From a virus: 29,223 bases of DNA. A model generated the notes under the pieces. It was not told the origin of the DNA and ran no database searches. It worked only from the letters and a program-made list of their open reading frames with translations. Below, in pieces: positions 4,935 through 29,223 of this stretch. The stretch is taken from the IMG/VR virus record IMGVR_UViG_3300005264_000042, positions 1 to 29,223 of that record, one strand, 5' to 3'. Position numbers and translations under genes: made by a program. Positions within the stretch are counted from its first letter, which is position 1, and every line of letters begins with the position of its first letter.

Positions 4935-4968
4935 TTGCAATTTATCAGCAGTTGAAATATAATTTCAA
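4935..4968 (+). promoter_or_regulatory. Promoter with operator-like palindrome over the -10 box
   Basis: TTGCAA (4935-4940), a 17-bp spacer and TATAAT (4958-4963). The palindrome TTGAAATATAATTTCAA (4952-4968) covers the whole -10 box. It is the same TTGAAA/TTTCAA type found at the early promoters. Predicted start near 4971, 19 nt before ATG 4990. Confidence 0.75.
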
Positions 4969-4989: not shown

Positions 4990-5403
4990 ATGCAAACCAC
5001 ATTCAATACAACAAAACCGGAAAAGGCAACACTTCATTTTTTTGACTATGTTTCACGAAAAGCAAACCGACAAATGCAATCCGTGTTGACGAAATATTCA
5101 GATATTGACATGGATGCAACACAAAAGAAATTTCAAAAAGCATTCAACGAAAAATCAAAAAAAATAAATCCCTTTATATCGTTGACAGAACGAGAACTTG
5201 ATGCGTTATTTGATACACAAGAAACAATGGTTGTACGGATGTTGGATAAAATCGTACTTGATGACGGCACGGTTGTTGAAGAAAAAAACAAAAAAGAGTT
5301 CATTCAAAACATGAATGATGTTGAATTTTCTGAAGCAACATTTGTTGCGGTTGACATTGTGAAAGCCGAAAAAGAAGAATCAGAAAAAAAAACAAAAAAG
5401 TAG
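4990..5403 (+). CDS. Tail assembly chaperone, short form (G-like)
   Basis: A 137-residue, mostly helical acidic/basic protein directly upstream of the tape measure. It corresponds to lambda gpG-like chaperones that coat the tape measure during tail assembly. It ends SEKKTKK followed by TAG. The last codons form the slippery heptamer A AAA AAG (5394-5400) immediately before the stop, and the next ORF continues in the -1 frame. Most ribosomes would make this form and a minority the longer G-T fusion. It is the first gene after the 4935 promoter. Confidence 0.82.
   Translation: MQTTFNTTKPEKATLHFFDYVSRKANRQMQSVLTKYSDIDMDATQKKFQKAFNEKSKKINPFISLTERELDALFDTQETMVVRMLDKIVLDDGTVVEEKNKKEFIQNMNDVEFSEATFVAVDIVKAEKEESEKKTKK
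5394..5400 (+). other. Programmed -1 ribosomal frameshift site (A AAA AAG)
   Basis: The zero-frame codons AAA AAG preceded by A form the canonical bacterial slippery heptamer, followed at once by TAG. A -1 slip reads Val-Val-Asp-Glu across the stop and then joins the frame of the 5412 ORF with no intervening stop. Position and frame are exactly as in lambda-type G/GT chaperone genes. A nearby A9 run (5384-5392) is a second possible slip site. Confidence 0.85.
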
Positions 5404-5411
5404 TTGATGAA

Positions 5412-5639
5412 ATGAGGTCTTTTTTGAACTCTCCACGACAAACACGAAAAAACAAAACTATACCGGATGAATATGCGGAGTTTTGTTTGTGTAGAATGTT
5501 TCACAAACTTCCACATGAATTTGATGAAATGCCCAACAATGTGGTACAATTATGGCGGAAATTCATTTCACTAGAAAACACAGGGGAAGAGCTTGAAATG
5601 AAAAGACAACAACAAAAAACCAATCATCATGGCAAATAA
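5412..5639 (+). CDS. Tail assembly chaperone, T extension (made by frameshift)
   Basis: A 75-residue ORF from its first ATG, but its reading frame is open back through the slippery site at 5394-5400. It is therefore best read as the C-terminal T part of a G-T fusion of about 214 residues (4990 to 5639). It contains PDEYAEFCLCRMFHKLPHEF, a W (VVQLWRKF) and a charged tail, as in T domains that recruit the tail-tube protein. It overlaps the tape-measure start by 11 bp. Independent translation from ATG 5412 is possible but unusual for the family. Confidence 0.8.
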   Translation: MRSFLNSPRQTRKNKTIPDEYAEFCLCRMFHKLPHEFDEMPNNVVQLWRKFISLENTGEELEMKRQQQKTNHHGK

Positions 5640-11219: not shown

Positions 11220-11420
11220 ATGCAATCTCCAAAATACAGCTTGAAAAACAAAGGATTGAAACTTTTAAAAAGCCTCGGACTTTCGTTGCTTGGTGGTTTT
11301 TCCGCTTGGCTTCTTACGATTACACAGGTGATTGATCTTGGTGTTTATGCACCATTGATCGGGTCAATGATGCCGTTTTTAGCGAACGCAATCAACGAGT
11401 TCATAAAAGAATCAAAATAA
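11220..11420 (+). CDS. Small membrane protein, candidate holin
   Basis: A 66-residue protein with a basic N-terminus (KYSLKNKGLKLLKS), a hydrophobic stretch LGLSLLGGFSAWLLTITQVI (about 19-38) and a second weaker one (APLIGSMMPFLANAI), then a charged end. The topology, size and location before a second membrane protein and a lytic-type peptidase suggest a holin. Its stop overlaps the next ATG (TAATG). No family motif proves the function. Confidence 0.6.
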   Translation: MQSPKYSLKNKGLKLLKSLGLSLLGGFSAWLLTITQVIDLGVYAPLIGSMMPFLANAINEFIKESK

Positions 11421-11710
11421 TGAAAGAAGTCATTCAAACTATAAAAAACAAACCGGTATATATTCAACTAGGAACCGCCGTTGTGGTGGTTGCCTTTATT
11501 GTTCGGTGTTCTTTTGCAATCGGAGCCTTTCTGGAAACAATGAACATGAAGATTGAAGACGTTTCCGCCAAATATATCATAATTGAAAAAGAGGTTGATG
11601 AATTGCAAACATTAAACAACAGCATTGGCAATCGGTTGGGACGAATAGAGGAGGTTCTGACAAGAGTTGAAAAGATCGTGGACAAAGTATCTGACAAAAT
11701 ATACCAATGA
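11420..11710 (+). CDS. Single-span membrane protein with coiled coil (lysis cassette)
   Basis: A 96-residue protein: a short basic N-terminus, one membrane segment (IQLGTAVVVVAFIVRCSFAIG, about 15-36) and a long heptad-rich helix (about 44-94, IEKEVDELQTLNN through IVDKVSDKIY). It starts inside the stop of the candidate holin gene and its end overlaps the peptidase ATG by 4 bp. The layout fits a second holin, a holin regulator or a spanin-like tether. The choice cannot be settled from sequence. Confidence 0.55.
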   Translation: MKEVIQTIKNKPVYIQLGTAVVVVAFIVRCSFAIGAFLETMNMKIEDVSAKYIIIEKEVDELQTLNNSIGNRLGRIEEVLTRVEKIVDKVSDKIYQ

Positions 11711-12444
11711 TTGAATCATTTTTGACCACAATTGCAAAGTTCAAAGAACAAATGCAAAATGATGTTCCATTCAACAACCTTGCCATGGATCTTCCGGATG
11801 ATCGTGATTGGGTTGCCGGCGTACCAACGTTGAGACACTTCCCAACACGGATAGATTTAGTCAAAAAGGCACAAAACCTTGGCTTCACGCCACGGAAACA
11901 ATCAAAAGGTAGTTGTACAGCATATTCTGAAATATTCCGTGCAGAGATTGAAAATACAATCGAACACGGCAAGAAGATCATACTTGATACAGAAGCACAA
12001 TGGGCTTGGCAGGAAAAGAGCGGAGCGAGTAGGGAAAAAGGGGATTGGATTCAGAATGCAAAAAAACAATTTCAAAAACATCCGCAAGGATTTCCACAAA
12101 CAGAATACCGGCGGATTGATGGCGGTGTTGATTTATGCAAAAAATGGTTGGCAAAACAAAAGCCGATCAATACCGGGATCTATTGGCGGTGGTTGTCAGA
12201 CAAGAGAATGACAAACTTCCGATACATGAAAGAAACCGGGATTTATATTCCGGGCGAAGGGAAGGTTTTGGGCGGTCATGCAATCATTTTGACCGGATTT
12301 GATCGTGGTGTTATTAAGTTTTTAGAACCAGAATTGACAAGAAATAAATCCGGGAACAACCAAGACGGTGTTTTTGAAATTTTTGAAGATCATTTTGAAA
12401 AACTTATGAGCCAGTACATTTCTTTTGATGCGTGGGATAAGTAG
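11707..12444 (+). CDS. Papain-like (C1) cysteine peptidase in the endolysin position
   Basis: A 245-residue protein. QSKGSCTAYSEIF (about 65-77) matches the papain active-site region QGxCGSCWAFS, with Q65 as oxyanion residue and C70 as nucleophile. GGHAIILTGFD (about 189-199), with H191, matches the catalytic His strand, followed by a strand IKFLEPEL where papain has its Asn loop. There is no signal peptide or wall-binding domain. It is overlapped by two small membrane genes, the standard place for an endolysin, so it may act as a peptide-cleaving lysin. A virion or host-protein protease role is the main alternative. Confidence 0.68.
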   Translation: MIESFLTTIAKFKEQMQNDVPFNNLAMDLPDDRDWVAGVPTLRHFPTRIDLVKKAQNLGFTPRKQSKGSCTAYSEIFRAEIENTIEHGKKIILDTEAQWAWQEKSGASREKGDWIQNAKKQFQKHPQGFPQTEYRRIDGGVDLCKKWLAKQKPINTGIYWRWLSDKRMTNFRYMKETGIYIPGEGKVLGGHAIILTGFDRGVIKFLEPELTRNKSGNNQDGVFEIFEDHFEKLMSQYISFDAWDK

Positions 12445-15818: not shown

Positions 15819-15847
15819 TTGAAAAAATGTTTCAAGTGTGGTATAAT
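15819..15847 (+). promoter_or_regulatory. Operator-bearing promoter for the membrane-lysozyme gene
   Basis: TTGAAA (15819-15824), a 17-bp spacer and a perfect TATAAT (15842-15847). The palindrome TTGAAAAAATGTTTCAA (15819-15835), flanked by a further C/G pair, covers the -35 box and is identical to the one at 23726. Predicted start near 15855, with a U-rich then A-rich leader of 25 nt. Confidence 0.85.
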
Positions 15848-15879: not shown

Positions 15880-16314
15880 ATGAAAAAAATACAAACAGAA
15901 AACGGATTCGAGTATAAAGGGGAAAAGAAAGACGTGGTGCGGATAATAATTGCAATGCTTATTGTATTAGCACTTTCCGCTTGGGGTATTAGTACGGTTC
16001 TTTCGGCAATACAACCGGCACAAATGGCGTGGGAAGATGACGTGATCCAATACAACCAAGACGTTGCCCATATTATTGAATCACGGTTCAACATGGTCTC
16101 CGCTGAAAGAGACTTGGCAAAGGAAAAATTGGAAGAAGCGGTTGAATTGGAAGCATGGGAAGAGATCATGCGACTGAAAAACAAGGTTCAGGCTCTTGAT
16201 GTAGAACTTGGAAGAAAAGAATATTGGATACCTTTTTTGCGGTATCAGGACAATTGTTCCGAAACGGAAAATCCCGGAACGGATGAGATCAAAAAAAAAA
16301 CGATGAAACGATAG
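15880..16314 (+). CDS. Membrane-anchored coiled-coil protein, N-terminal part of a candidate lysozyme fusion
   Basis: A 144-residue ORF: a cytoplasmic charged N-terminus, one membrane span (VVRIIIAMLIVLALSAWGIS, about 19-40) and a long charged helix (about 55-112). It ends EIKKKTMKR at TAG 16312. Its last codons cross a run of ten A (16291-16300). A -1 slip there continues without a stop into a lysozyme domain that has no ATG of its own. Without the shift it is a plain membrane/coiled-coil protein. The leader (TTTATTTTTTAAACC) is of the standard type for this genome. Confidence 0.72.
   Translation: MKKIQTENGFEYKGEKKDVVRIIIAMLIVLALSAWGISTVLSAIQPAQMAWEDDVIQYNQDVAHIIESRFNMVSAERDLAKEKLEEAVELEAWEEIMRLKNKVQALDVELGRKEYWIPFLRYQDNCSETENPGTDEIKKKTMKR
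16291..16300 (+). other. Candidate -1 frameshift site (A10 run)
   Basis: Ten consecutive A in the frame GAG-ATC-AAA-AAA-AAA-ACG provide A AAA AAA slippery heptamers. The -1 frame then reads Asn-Asp-Glu-Thr-Ile-Ala and runs into the lysozyme domain with no stop. A sequencing or assembly indel in the homopolymer would give the same picture and must be excluded. Confidence 0.6.
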
Positions 16315-16712
16315 CAGAAAAAGCATTTCAATTTATTTCCAAACATGAAGGCTTGAGATTGAAAGCATATTGGGATATTGATGCGTGGGCGGTGTGTTAT
16401 GGGAACCGATCACATGAAGGAGAAACGACAACAAAAGAGGATTGTGAATCCCGGTTGCGTTCCCGGATTGGATCGGTTTTTTCTTATGTGAAAGATAAAT
16501 TTGGGGAAGACTTCACGGATAATCAACTGGTGGCATTGGTGTCTTTATATTTCAACGTGAGAGATCCGGAGCATGTTGAATGGCGGATCAAAAACGACAT
16601 GAGCAATGAAAGTGTTGCAAATGCTTTTCGGATGTATGTTGTAGCCGATGGGCAACGTCTTCCGGGATTGGAGAAAAGAAGAAAAGAAGAAGCAAACTTG
16701 TTTTTAAAATAG
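16299..16712 (+). CDS. Phage lysozyme (GH24) domain, probably expressed as a -1 frameshift fusion
   Basis: This frame is open from 16287 and encodes FISKHEGLRLKAYWD, the classic GH24 start with the catalytic Glu, then AWAVCYG, FTDNQLVALVSLYFNV, and the typical ending ADGQRLPGLEKRRKEEANLF. The first usable start codon is TTG 16353, which would delete the catalytic Glu, so fusion to the membrane/coiled-coil ORF (15880) through the A10 run is the better reading, giving about 276 residues. By comparison with the E-x8-D-x5-T triad, the Thr position seems to hold Ala or Val, so activity is uncertain. The gene lies in the early block, far from the late lysis genes. It could be a membrane-tethered muralytic or decoy protein. 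Confidence 0.72.
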   Translation, partial: NDETIAEKAFQFISKHEGLRLKAYWDIDAWAVCYGNRSHEGETTTKEDCESRLRSRIGSVFSYVKDKFGEDFTDNQLVALVSLYFNVRDPEHVEWRIKNDMSNESVANAFRMYVVADGQRLPGLEKRRKEEANLFLK

Positions 16713-16855: not shown

Positions 16856-16883
16856 TTGAAAAATATTTTCAACAACCTATACT
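16856..16883 (+). promoter_or_regulatory. Operator-bearing promoter for the recombination genes
   Basis: TTGAAA (16856-16861), a 16-bp spacer and TATACT (16878-16883). The perfect 7-3-7 palindrome TTGAAAAATATTTTCAA (16856-16872) covers the -35 box. The leader TTTATTTTTTAAACAACAAC starts close to the expected transcription start and ends just before ATG 16916. Confidence 0.82.
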
Positions 16884-16915: not shown

Positions 16916-18073
16916 ATGAATGAAAATGAAATATTTTCAAACACTCCGGAGGTTCAGGAAACATTAGATGTAATCAAGATTGATGACATCGAAGCAACAA
17001 AGATAATTTTAAACAATTATTTTTCCGCAGGAATTCAAGTAATGGAGTTTGATTCAATCCCGGTTCCGATCCGTTTGTCTTTTGTGCAGAAAACACCAAA
17101 GGCATTTATAAAATATCGGGCGGTTGGAGGCAATCAAATTCCATATATTGATCATTATTTTGCGGAAAAATGTTTGAACTTTGTTTCAAATTTTGATTGG
17201 GACTCTGAAATTGTCCGATCAGATATAAAAGAAGTAATGGTAAAAACAAAGAACGGTGACAAACGTGCATTTGATGCAATGGTCGAAATGAATTTCAAAA
17301 TCACACTAGGGGAGAAAACAATCAAACGGTTCATAGTAGCAGGACACCGGATGTTTGAATCACCGGCAACGACAAGAGCGGATGCCTTGAAATCGGCAGT
17401 ATCAAAGGCAAACACGGTTTTTGCACGGCAACTTGGGGTTGGGGCAAATATTATTGATCAGGAAGGCAGGGCGTATGATGCAATCGTGAATGTCATGGAT
17501 GCGGTGAAAACACTTGCCCCGGTCAAATTCGACAAATCAGACTTTGAACCGGTGAAAGAAGAAAAGAAAAAACCGAAAAAGAAAACTGAAAAAGTTATTG
17601 AAAAAAAAGAAACAGAATTAGAAATCCGGGATGAATCAAAGAACACACCGCAAATAGACGTTGAGCCGAAAAAGGTTGATCCGGAAGAACAAAAAAAGAT
17701 GCTTTTGAAAATTCGGGAAGAACAACTTGAAAAAGAGAAAGCCGAAAAAGCCGAAAAAGAAAAAGCAAAACCAGTGGCAAAAAAGGCGGAACCGGTTGAA
17801 AAGAAAGAACCAGAAGAAAAAAAGGAAGAGATCAAAAAAAGATCATTCGACAAAGAAAAGTTTTGTGGACACATTGACCGTTGCCGAACGCTTGATGAAT
17901 TGAATAAAATTCATGAAGCATTTCAAACGGTAAACAAGCAAATCGAAGAATTTGAACTTGATGCGGAATCAATCACGGAAATTTGGGATGCATTGAAATT
18001 AAAATTGAAAGAGGTTTCCATAAAAAAAGACGGTGTTGCGGATGCTTCAGATTTTGATGATCTTTTTTCATAG
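16916..18073 (+). CDS. Rad52-like single-strand annealing protein
   Basis: A 385-residue protein. Residues about 45-200 have the Rad52/Sak-type pattern: KAFIKYRAVGGNQIPYIDHYFAEKCLNF (quoted partly, about 60-90), FDWDSEIVRSDIKEVMVKTK, a beta strand MVEMNFKITLGEKTIKRF, then RADALKSAVSKANTVFARQLG (about 150-170). A highly charged Lys/Glu linker follows (about 205-310), then a conserved-looking helical C-terminal domain (KFCGHIDRCRTLDELNKIHE and on). Such proteins anneal ssDNA with an exonuclease partner, here probably the PD-(D/E)XK protein at 19144. The end, DDLFS-TAG, abuts a SWIM ORF in the -1 frame. Confidence 0.68.
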   Translation: MNENEIFSNTPEVQETLDVIKIDDIEATKIILNNYFSAGIQVMEFDSIPVPIRLSFVQKTPKAFIKYRAVGGNQIPYIDHYFAEKCLNFVSNFDWDSEIVRSDIKEVMVKTKNGDKRAFDAMVEMNFKITLGEKTIKRFIVAGHRMFESPATTRADALKSAVSKANTVFARQLGVGANIIDQEGRAYDAIVNVMDAVKTLAPVKFDKSDFEPVKEEKKKPKKKTEKVIEKKETELEIRDESKNTPQIDVEPKKVDPEEQKKMLLKIREEQLEKEKAEKAEKEKAKPVAKKAEPVEKKEPEEKKEEIKKRSFDKEKFCGHIDRCRTLDELNKIHEAFQTVNKQIEEFELDAESITEIWDALKLKLKEVSIKKDGVADASDFDDLFS

Positions 18074-20727: not shown

Positions 20728-21519
20728 ATGAAGTCAAGCAAAGGCGAACGAGGTAGAACAATAGTTGCAATGAGTGGCGGAAAAGGCTCCGCATGGTGTG
20801 CAAAATGGGCAATTGACAATTGCAAAGATGTTGTTCTTTATTTCAATGATACAAAATGGGATGATCCCGATTTGTATAGGTTCTTGGAGGATCTTCAACA
20901 ACATTTTGGTATTAAAATTTTTAATGATTCAGATGGGAGAACACCGGAAGAATTGTTTTTTGATGTGAAATATTTGGGAAATAGCCGTGTGGCGTTGTGT
21001 TCAATAGAGTTGAAAGCGAAAAGATTACAACGGTTTTTTGAAAAAAATGACACACTTATTTTTGGAATTGGAATTGATGAGCTACACCGGGCGGTAAGAA
21101 TTGCCGGAATATATAATGAAATATCTTTGAAAAAATGGGGAAAACCGTGCAACGTTGTATTCCCAATGATAAAAGAAGAAACAACAAAAGAGACCATTGA
21201 CAACTGGTTGACATCAACAGGAATAAAACAACCAAGGTTGTACGACATGGGCTTCAATCACAACAATTGTGGCGGTGGTTGTGTGAGAGCGGGTAAAAAG
21301 CAATGGAAGCATTTGTTGGAGACACTTCCGGATGTTTATATGAAAAGGGAAGAGATGGAAGAACGATTCAGAAAAGAGCTAGGGAAAGACGTAACAATAA
21401 TAAAGGGGATCACATTGAAAGAATTTAGAAAAAAAACACAGAACAATCTCAAGATGGATCTTGACTTTGATTGTGAAATACAAAATGAATGTATTGGGAT
21501 TTGTGGGTCTATAAATTAA
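20728..21519 (+). CDS. PP-loop ATPase, PAPS-reductase-like family
   Basis: A 263-residue protein. SGGKGS at 16-21 is the PP-loop that binds ATP pyrophosphate. FNDTKWDDPDLYRF (about 39-52), LCSIELKAKRLQRF (about 90-103, C91) and GIGIDELHRAVRI follow as in PAPS-reductase/adenine nucleotide alpha hydrolase proteins. FNHNNCGGGCVRAGKKQW (C181, C185) and a cysteine-rich C-terminus (CEIQNECIGICG) could bind an Fe-S cluster or zinc. Phage members of this family are common but mostly uncharacterised. Sulfur transfer to DNA (DndC-like) or nucleotide modification are possible roles. It starts after TTTTTTAAAAACAAAACAAC. Confidence 0.8.
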   Translation: MKSSKGERGRTIVAMSGGKGSAWCAKWAIDNCKDVVLYFNDTKWDDPDLYRFLEDLQQHFGIKIFNDSDGRTPEELFFDVKYLGNSRVALCSIELKAKRLQRFFEKNDTLIFGIGIDELHRAVRIAGIYNEISLKKWGKPCNVVFPMIKEETTKETIDNWLTSTGIKQPRLYDMGFNHNNCGGGCVRAGKKQWKHLLETLPDVYMKREEMEERFRKELGKDVTIIKGITLKEFRKKTQNNLKMDLDFDCEIQNECIGICGSIN

Positions 21520-29100: not shown

Positions 29101-29119
29101 ACTCTTTATTTATTTATTT

Positions 29120-29223
29120 AAAAACAAACTATCATGAACACATTAGAAATGTTACAAGAACTCGAAGCAATGGGAGTTCAAACGAACGCCACTCCTCCAA
29201 TGGGAACAGGCAAAACAGGGGAA
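29120..29223. repeat. Terminal direct repeat, right copy
   Basis: Identical to 1-104. It contains the capsid leader and the first 30 codons of the capsid gene again (29134-29223), which is the same gene as at 15, not a second copy. Confidence 0.95.
29134..29223 (+). CDS. Major capsid protein, 5' part cut by the window end
   Basis: The first 30 codons of the capsid gene, repeated because of the end overlap. The full gene is at 15-1088. The region between the protease stop (29100) and this ATG is a U-rich then A-rich leader with no promoter I can support, so the capsid gene is probably read from the 27767 promoter. Confidence 0.9.
   Translation, partial: MNTLEMLQELEAMGVQTNATPPMGTGKTGE

Follow-up and report, generated by a model that had tools for sequence, protein, structure and literature searches.

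A candidate poly-A recoding site that would tether a GH24 lysozyme domain to a membrane coiled coil in a phage genome

An uninterrupted run of ten adenines near the 3' end of a membrane-protein ORF lies where a -1 slip would join that ORF to a GH24 lysozyme domain in an overlapping frame. The window analysed here is the entire IMG/VR virus record, 29,223 bases, and all features of the locus are on the + strand. With the sequence as given, the membrane anchor, coiled coil and GH24 domain can be joined only by a -1 slip at the A10 run. On balance, we read the two ORFs as one recoded gene that yields both the anchor and a membrane-tethered lysozyme.

The record starts with a major capsid gene, ends with a head protease gene and carries connector, tail, replication, recombination, terminase and portal genes between them. 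Its boundary (1-14 and 29101-29223) falls between the head protease and major capsid genes, which are normally neighbours. Given these ends and the phage genes it holds, the record is probably the near-complete, circularly permuted genome of a small tailed phage. Its terminase shares 50.6% identity with the Flavobacterium phage 11b terminase, and its gene leaders are A-rich and lack Shine-Dalgarno sites, as described for Bacteroidetes (PMC6847099). Together these two features make a Bacteroidota host likely.

The anchor ORF (15880-16314, 144 aa) has a charged N-terminus with six Lys/Arg ahead of one strongly hydrophobic transmembrane helix (residues about 22-44, 15943-16011; mean hydropathy up to 2.5), which is followed by an acidic stretch. 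By the positive-inside rule, the predicted topology is N-terminus in, C-terminus out. A single-sequence structure model gives one long helix spanning residues 16-126. The part beyond the membrane (residues about 46-126, 16015-16257) is continuous helix and likely a coiled coil, with pLDDT about 90 for residues 51-110. Searches of IMG/VR and of 50,697 phage records (E up to 1) found no relatives of the anchor.

The -1 frame runs from 16287, just after a TGA at 16284-16286, to a TAG that ends at 16712. Its domain match (16341-16691) bears out the earlier assignment to GH24, with Pfam PF00959 at E 2.6e-19 (70.2 bits; curated cut-off 22.3) and a PHROG endolysin match at E 3.5e-24. The domain model has pLDDT 94.6 and superposes on a solved GH24 structure (9kbq) with Z 18.1 and on the SpmX muramidase domain (6h9d) with Z 18.0, both at 2.0 A over 135 residues; Z is 16.3 for R21 and 11.4 for T4 lysozyme. 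From the sequence matches and the model, the GH24 domain is real and its predicted fold intact.

The catalytic Glu (Glu21 of the lysozyme frame, P0002; 16347-16349) is invariant in 177 aligned rows, and Asp30 aligns with the family catalytic Asp of the Glu-Asp-Thr triad. The third position is Ala35 (16389-16391), where 174 of the 177 aligned GH24 rows have Thr. The sequence-only reading had the catalytic Thr replaced by Ala or Val; it is indeed replaced, by Ala, but the change is no private sign of lost function because it is common to a GH24 subgroup of other phages. Members of that subgroup (L276, L281, L287, L295, L293, L298, L300 and L303) have Ala for the catalytic Thr and a loop one residue shorter (AYWDVNAWAIGYGH). 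A solved Thr-to-Ala mutant of the GH24-like protein pesticin (4arm) is titled inactive, so by analogy reduced activity is plausible here.

The A10 run occupies 16291-16300 and contains the in-frame heptamer A_AAA_AAA (16293-16299). The anchor-frame stop lies 15 nt after the heptamer and the -1 frame is open for 137 codons, which is the layout of a slippery site. The run, ten bases against a threshold of at least nine A or T, is in the coding frame near the stop: the TAG (16312-16314) begins 12 nt past the end of the run, four codons on. Frames read directly from the sequence confirm that a -1 slip here would join anchor, coil and lysozyme, as had been proposed; the predicted product is 277 aa, against an earlier estimate of about 276. 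Its junction is IKKKNDETIAEK, and a -1 slip and one A added to the mRNA yield the identical protein.

The claim that the lysozyme has no start upstream holds within its own frame, where no ATG, GTG or TTG precedes the domain and the first such codon, TTG 16353, is already inside it. Outside that frame, an ATG does follow the run by two bases (16303-16305). It belongs to the anchor frame, encodes Met-Lys-Arg-stop and has a moderately start-like leader, ranking 47th among 637 non-start ATGs. Of the near-cognate starts close to the domain, the best positioned is an ATA in the lysozyme frame that overlaps the anchor stop (16311-16313).

Long A runs are rare in the genes of this genome. Runs of A9 or longer occur in 2 of 29 genes, the anchor and a tail-chaperone-type gene, in both cases within the last ten codons. 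Both have an in-frame A_AAA_AA(A/G) heptamer followed by a long open -1 frame, and no other gene scanned has an in-frame A-heptamer followed by 40 or more open -1 codons. Shuffling the codon order of the anchor ORF placed A9 or longer within its ten final codons in 0.41% of trials (P 0.0041). The genome encodes Lys-Lys-Lys at five other places, each of which uses at least one AAG codon. A-rich stretches are also common ahead of start codons in this genome (ATG 7705 is preceded by A10), which gives another possible reason for the A10 run.

The tail-chaperone-type pair (4990-5639) serves as a comparison and is not part of the anchor-lysozyme locus. It consists of an ORF at 4990-5403 and a -1 frame to 5639, open for 79-82 codons, upstream of the tape-measure gene. 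It has an A9 run (5384-5392) and A_AAA_AAG just before the TAG, and RNA structure is predicted downstream (z -2.1). A frameshift review (PMC5009743) describes this arrangement, a heptamer before the stop with a -1 frame, as a known tail-chaperone layout. The anchor-lysozyme site resembles the lambda-type G/GT frameshift in its -1 frame and its slippery heptamer just before a stop. Unlike G/GT, it would fuse an enzyme, not a chaperone, and no downstream structure is predicted.

In the proposed mechanism, most transcripts would give the 144-aa anchor, which would cross the membrane once, its N-terminus staying inside and its coiled coil lying in the periplasm. Occasionally RNA polymerase would add an A on the run, ribosomes would slip -1 on A_AAA_AAA, or both. 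The resulting 277-aa product would carry the GH24 domain at the tip of the coil, held at the inner membrane and facing peptidoglycan. The anchor would thereby supply the export signal that the lysozyme domain itself lacks, and the slip would set a low lysozyme dose. Because no stimulatory RNA structure is predicted after the run (16300-16400, z +1.0; such structures are common but not universal at -1 sites), RNA polymerase slippage is at least as probable as a ribosomal -1 shift, and we favour it, with a ribosomal contribution.

A run of ten is within the range of proven RNA polymerase slippage, which counts in favour of recoding. Slippage on A11 in Citrobacter rodentium tssM1 reaches 20-25% (PMC4256274), slippage on A10 is described for Shigella spa13 and Buchnera genes (PMC6260861), and nine two-ORF dnaX genes with A10 were assigned to slippage by comparison with Thermus (PMC3711429). 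The tssM1, Thermus and Chlorobi dnaX, Buchnera and Shigella genes share with the present locus an A9-A11 run shortly before a stop, a long ORF in another frame, and short and long products, which are predicted here. They differ in belonging to other gene families, and slippage at the present locus is a prediction.

We scored 177 GH24 loci for a start codon. An in-frame start precedes the domain in all 175 of the other checkable loci; the two without one are the window's own and a locus cut by a contig end. Most relatives are stand-alone, and their ATG lies some 12-16 residues N-terminal to the catalytic Glu. Searches with the anchor, the fusion and the neighbouring genes, and among terminase relatives and Bacteroidota genomes, found no relative with both parts of the junction. 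The neighbouring genes at 16916 and 19144 returned no relatives as queries. Terminase relatives were at best 56% identical; PF00959 was found in 0 of 23 of their records, and 0 of 17 matched the 277-aa fusion.

Among 395 Bacteroidota genomes, nothing matched the anchor part, and the GH24 proteins were stand-alone, lipoprotein-like or membrane-fused. One locus in a Bacteroidia MAG (L208:2881-3438) encodes a short N-terminal membrane helix and GH24 in a single frame. Immediately ahead of its GH24 domain it has an A8 run and an in-frame internal ATG; judging by its sequence, it may make both tethered and free lysozyme. Sequences of L256, L307 and L308 also suggest membrane or lipoprotein tethering. 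Tethering of GH24 therefore has precedents, and the frame break has none among the loci compared. In titles and abstracts, we found no frameshifted endolysin and no membrane-anchored lysozyme in superinfection exclusion, and the frameshift review (PMC5009743), in the text examined, does not mention lysozyme, endolysin or holin.

Known GH24 proteins match parts of the predicted product. Phage GH24 endolysins (PF00959; P22 lysozyme, PHAb10, R21 and P1 Lyz) share the fold and the catalytic Glu and Asp, with Z 14.9-18.1. Unlike them, the window lysozyme has no start of its own, has Ala at the catalytic Thr position and would be slip-joined to a membrane coil. SAR endolysins (R21, P1 Lyz and DLP12 RrrD) offer a parallel for export, in that an N-terminal membrane helix could export the GH24 domain without a holin. 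The window protein differs from them in its two frames and in the 80-residue coil between membrane and enzyme. A SAR helix is weakly hydrophobic, leaves the membrane and activates the enzyme; the helix here is strongly hydrophobic and far from the enzyme. SpmX likewise has a GH24 domain held at the membrane, but it is a bacterial protein made from a single frame and its domain order is different.

Because no relative with the junction was found, a one-base assembly error or recent indel remains a rival to recoding. The gene would then encode anchor and lysozyme in one frame as a fused protein of about 277 aa, the contig would carry a one-base indel (an assembly error or minor variant), and the tethered lysozyme would be real with no recoding involved. 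A single base added anywhere between the run and the domain would put both ORFs in one frame, A10 is the most error-prone kind of site and so the likeliest place for an assembly error, and the L208 fusion with its A8 run shows such a gene in one frame. About 48 other homopolymer runs within genes, including A9 and G8, nevertheless show no visible frame break, and no gene in the window other than the anchor/lysozyme pair looks broken. An indel would also make it a matter of chance that a stop comes immediately behind the run and that the arrangement mirrors the tail-chaperone pair. We regard this explanation as unlikely, though it is the strongest competitor to recoding.

The lysozyme might instead be a separate small gene with no purposeful fusion, begun by translational coupling at the weak start ATA 16311 or formerly at its own ATG 16303, recently put out of frame. 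Both codons sit at the usual GH24 start distance from the catalytic Glu, and the ATG has A at -3, -6 and -12, positions where A is favourable in Flavobacterium (PMC6847099). But that ATG now encodes only three residues before the stop, and ATA is a very poor start that selection could readily improve. Among the GH24 homologues that could be checked, none is without a standard start. As the ATG is in the anchor frame, a one-base change there would break a fusion too. Taken together, a separate gene seems rather improbable.

Least probable of all is that the lysozyme part is a decaying remnant left by a frameshift and made only at noise level: the loss of the catalytic Thr, by the same change as in 4arm, and the lack of close relatives fit decay, but no stop interrupts the frame beyond the run, the domain is strongly conserved with a confident fold, other, intact phage GH24 domains have the same Ala, and no other wall hydrolase is recognised among the proteins scanned. 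A reassigned stop codon was also considered and ruled out, since readthrough of the TAG in frame 0 meets another stop within 15 codons.

If the recoded product is made, its role could be that of a lysis enzyme or of a wall-binding or remodelling protein. The sequence-only reading had set it apart from a late lysis cassette located elsewhere. That contrast is weaker than stated: the proposed cassette (11220-12444) is backed by weak family matches at most, so the location of the gene gives no ground for assuming a non-lysis role. Within it, 11707-12444 follows two small membrane proteins and possibly encodes a papain-like cysteine peptidase (GSCTAYS and GGHAIILTGFD stretches), with no family match above threshold. 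As the one wall hydrolase recognised among the proteins scanned in the genome, the tethered lysozyme could equally serve lysis.

A more specific proposal starts from a gene with its own promoter, away from the structural region, in which poly-A recoding sets how much of the membrane coiled-coil protein carries a Thr-less lysozyme at its tip; the lysozyme-bearing form would then hold, bind or locally trim the wall, for example against superinfection, and would not burst the cell. We put it forward as speculation and think it quite unlikely as a whole. Phage recoding is best known for tail chaperones. If the A10 run is confirmed in reads or in relatives, the locus would be a rare use of a known slippage trick; if recoding does determine which copies of a membrane protein receive a wall-cutting domain, the phage would have a novel means of keeping a hazardous enzyme at a controlled dose, and annotation pipelines would miss or mislabel such lysozymes.

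Upstream of the anchor lies a sigma-70-like promoter, TTGAAA-17-TATAAT (15819-15847), with its -35 box inside the palindrome TTGAAAAAATGTTTCAA (15819-15835). This agrees with the earlier description of an operator-bearing promoter, in that a promoter-like site carries a palindrome found at several other promoters. The next promoter-like site is at 16856, which would make the anchor, the lysozyme and perhaps a 46-aa cysteine-rich ORF one unit. The palindrome TTGAAAA-NNN-TTTTCAA occurs at 4952, 13548, 15819, 16856, 19086 and 21564. Four of these copies (15819, 16856, 19086 and 21564) overlie a -35 box and are followed by a TATAAT-like box and a TTTAAACAACAAC-type leader. On these sequence features, the palindrome sites may form a shared promoter or operator class. 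The early region also contains a phosphoadenosine phosphosulfate reductase-like gene at 20728-21519 (PHROG 424, E 4e-41).
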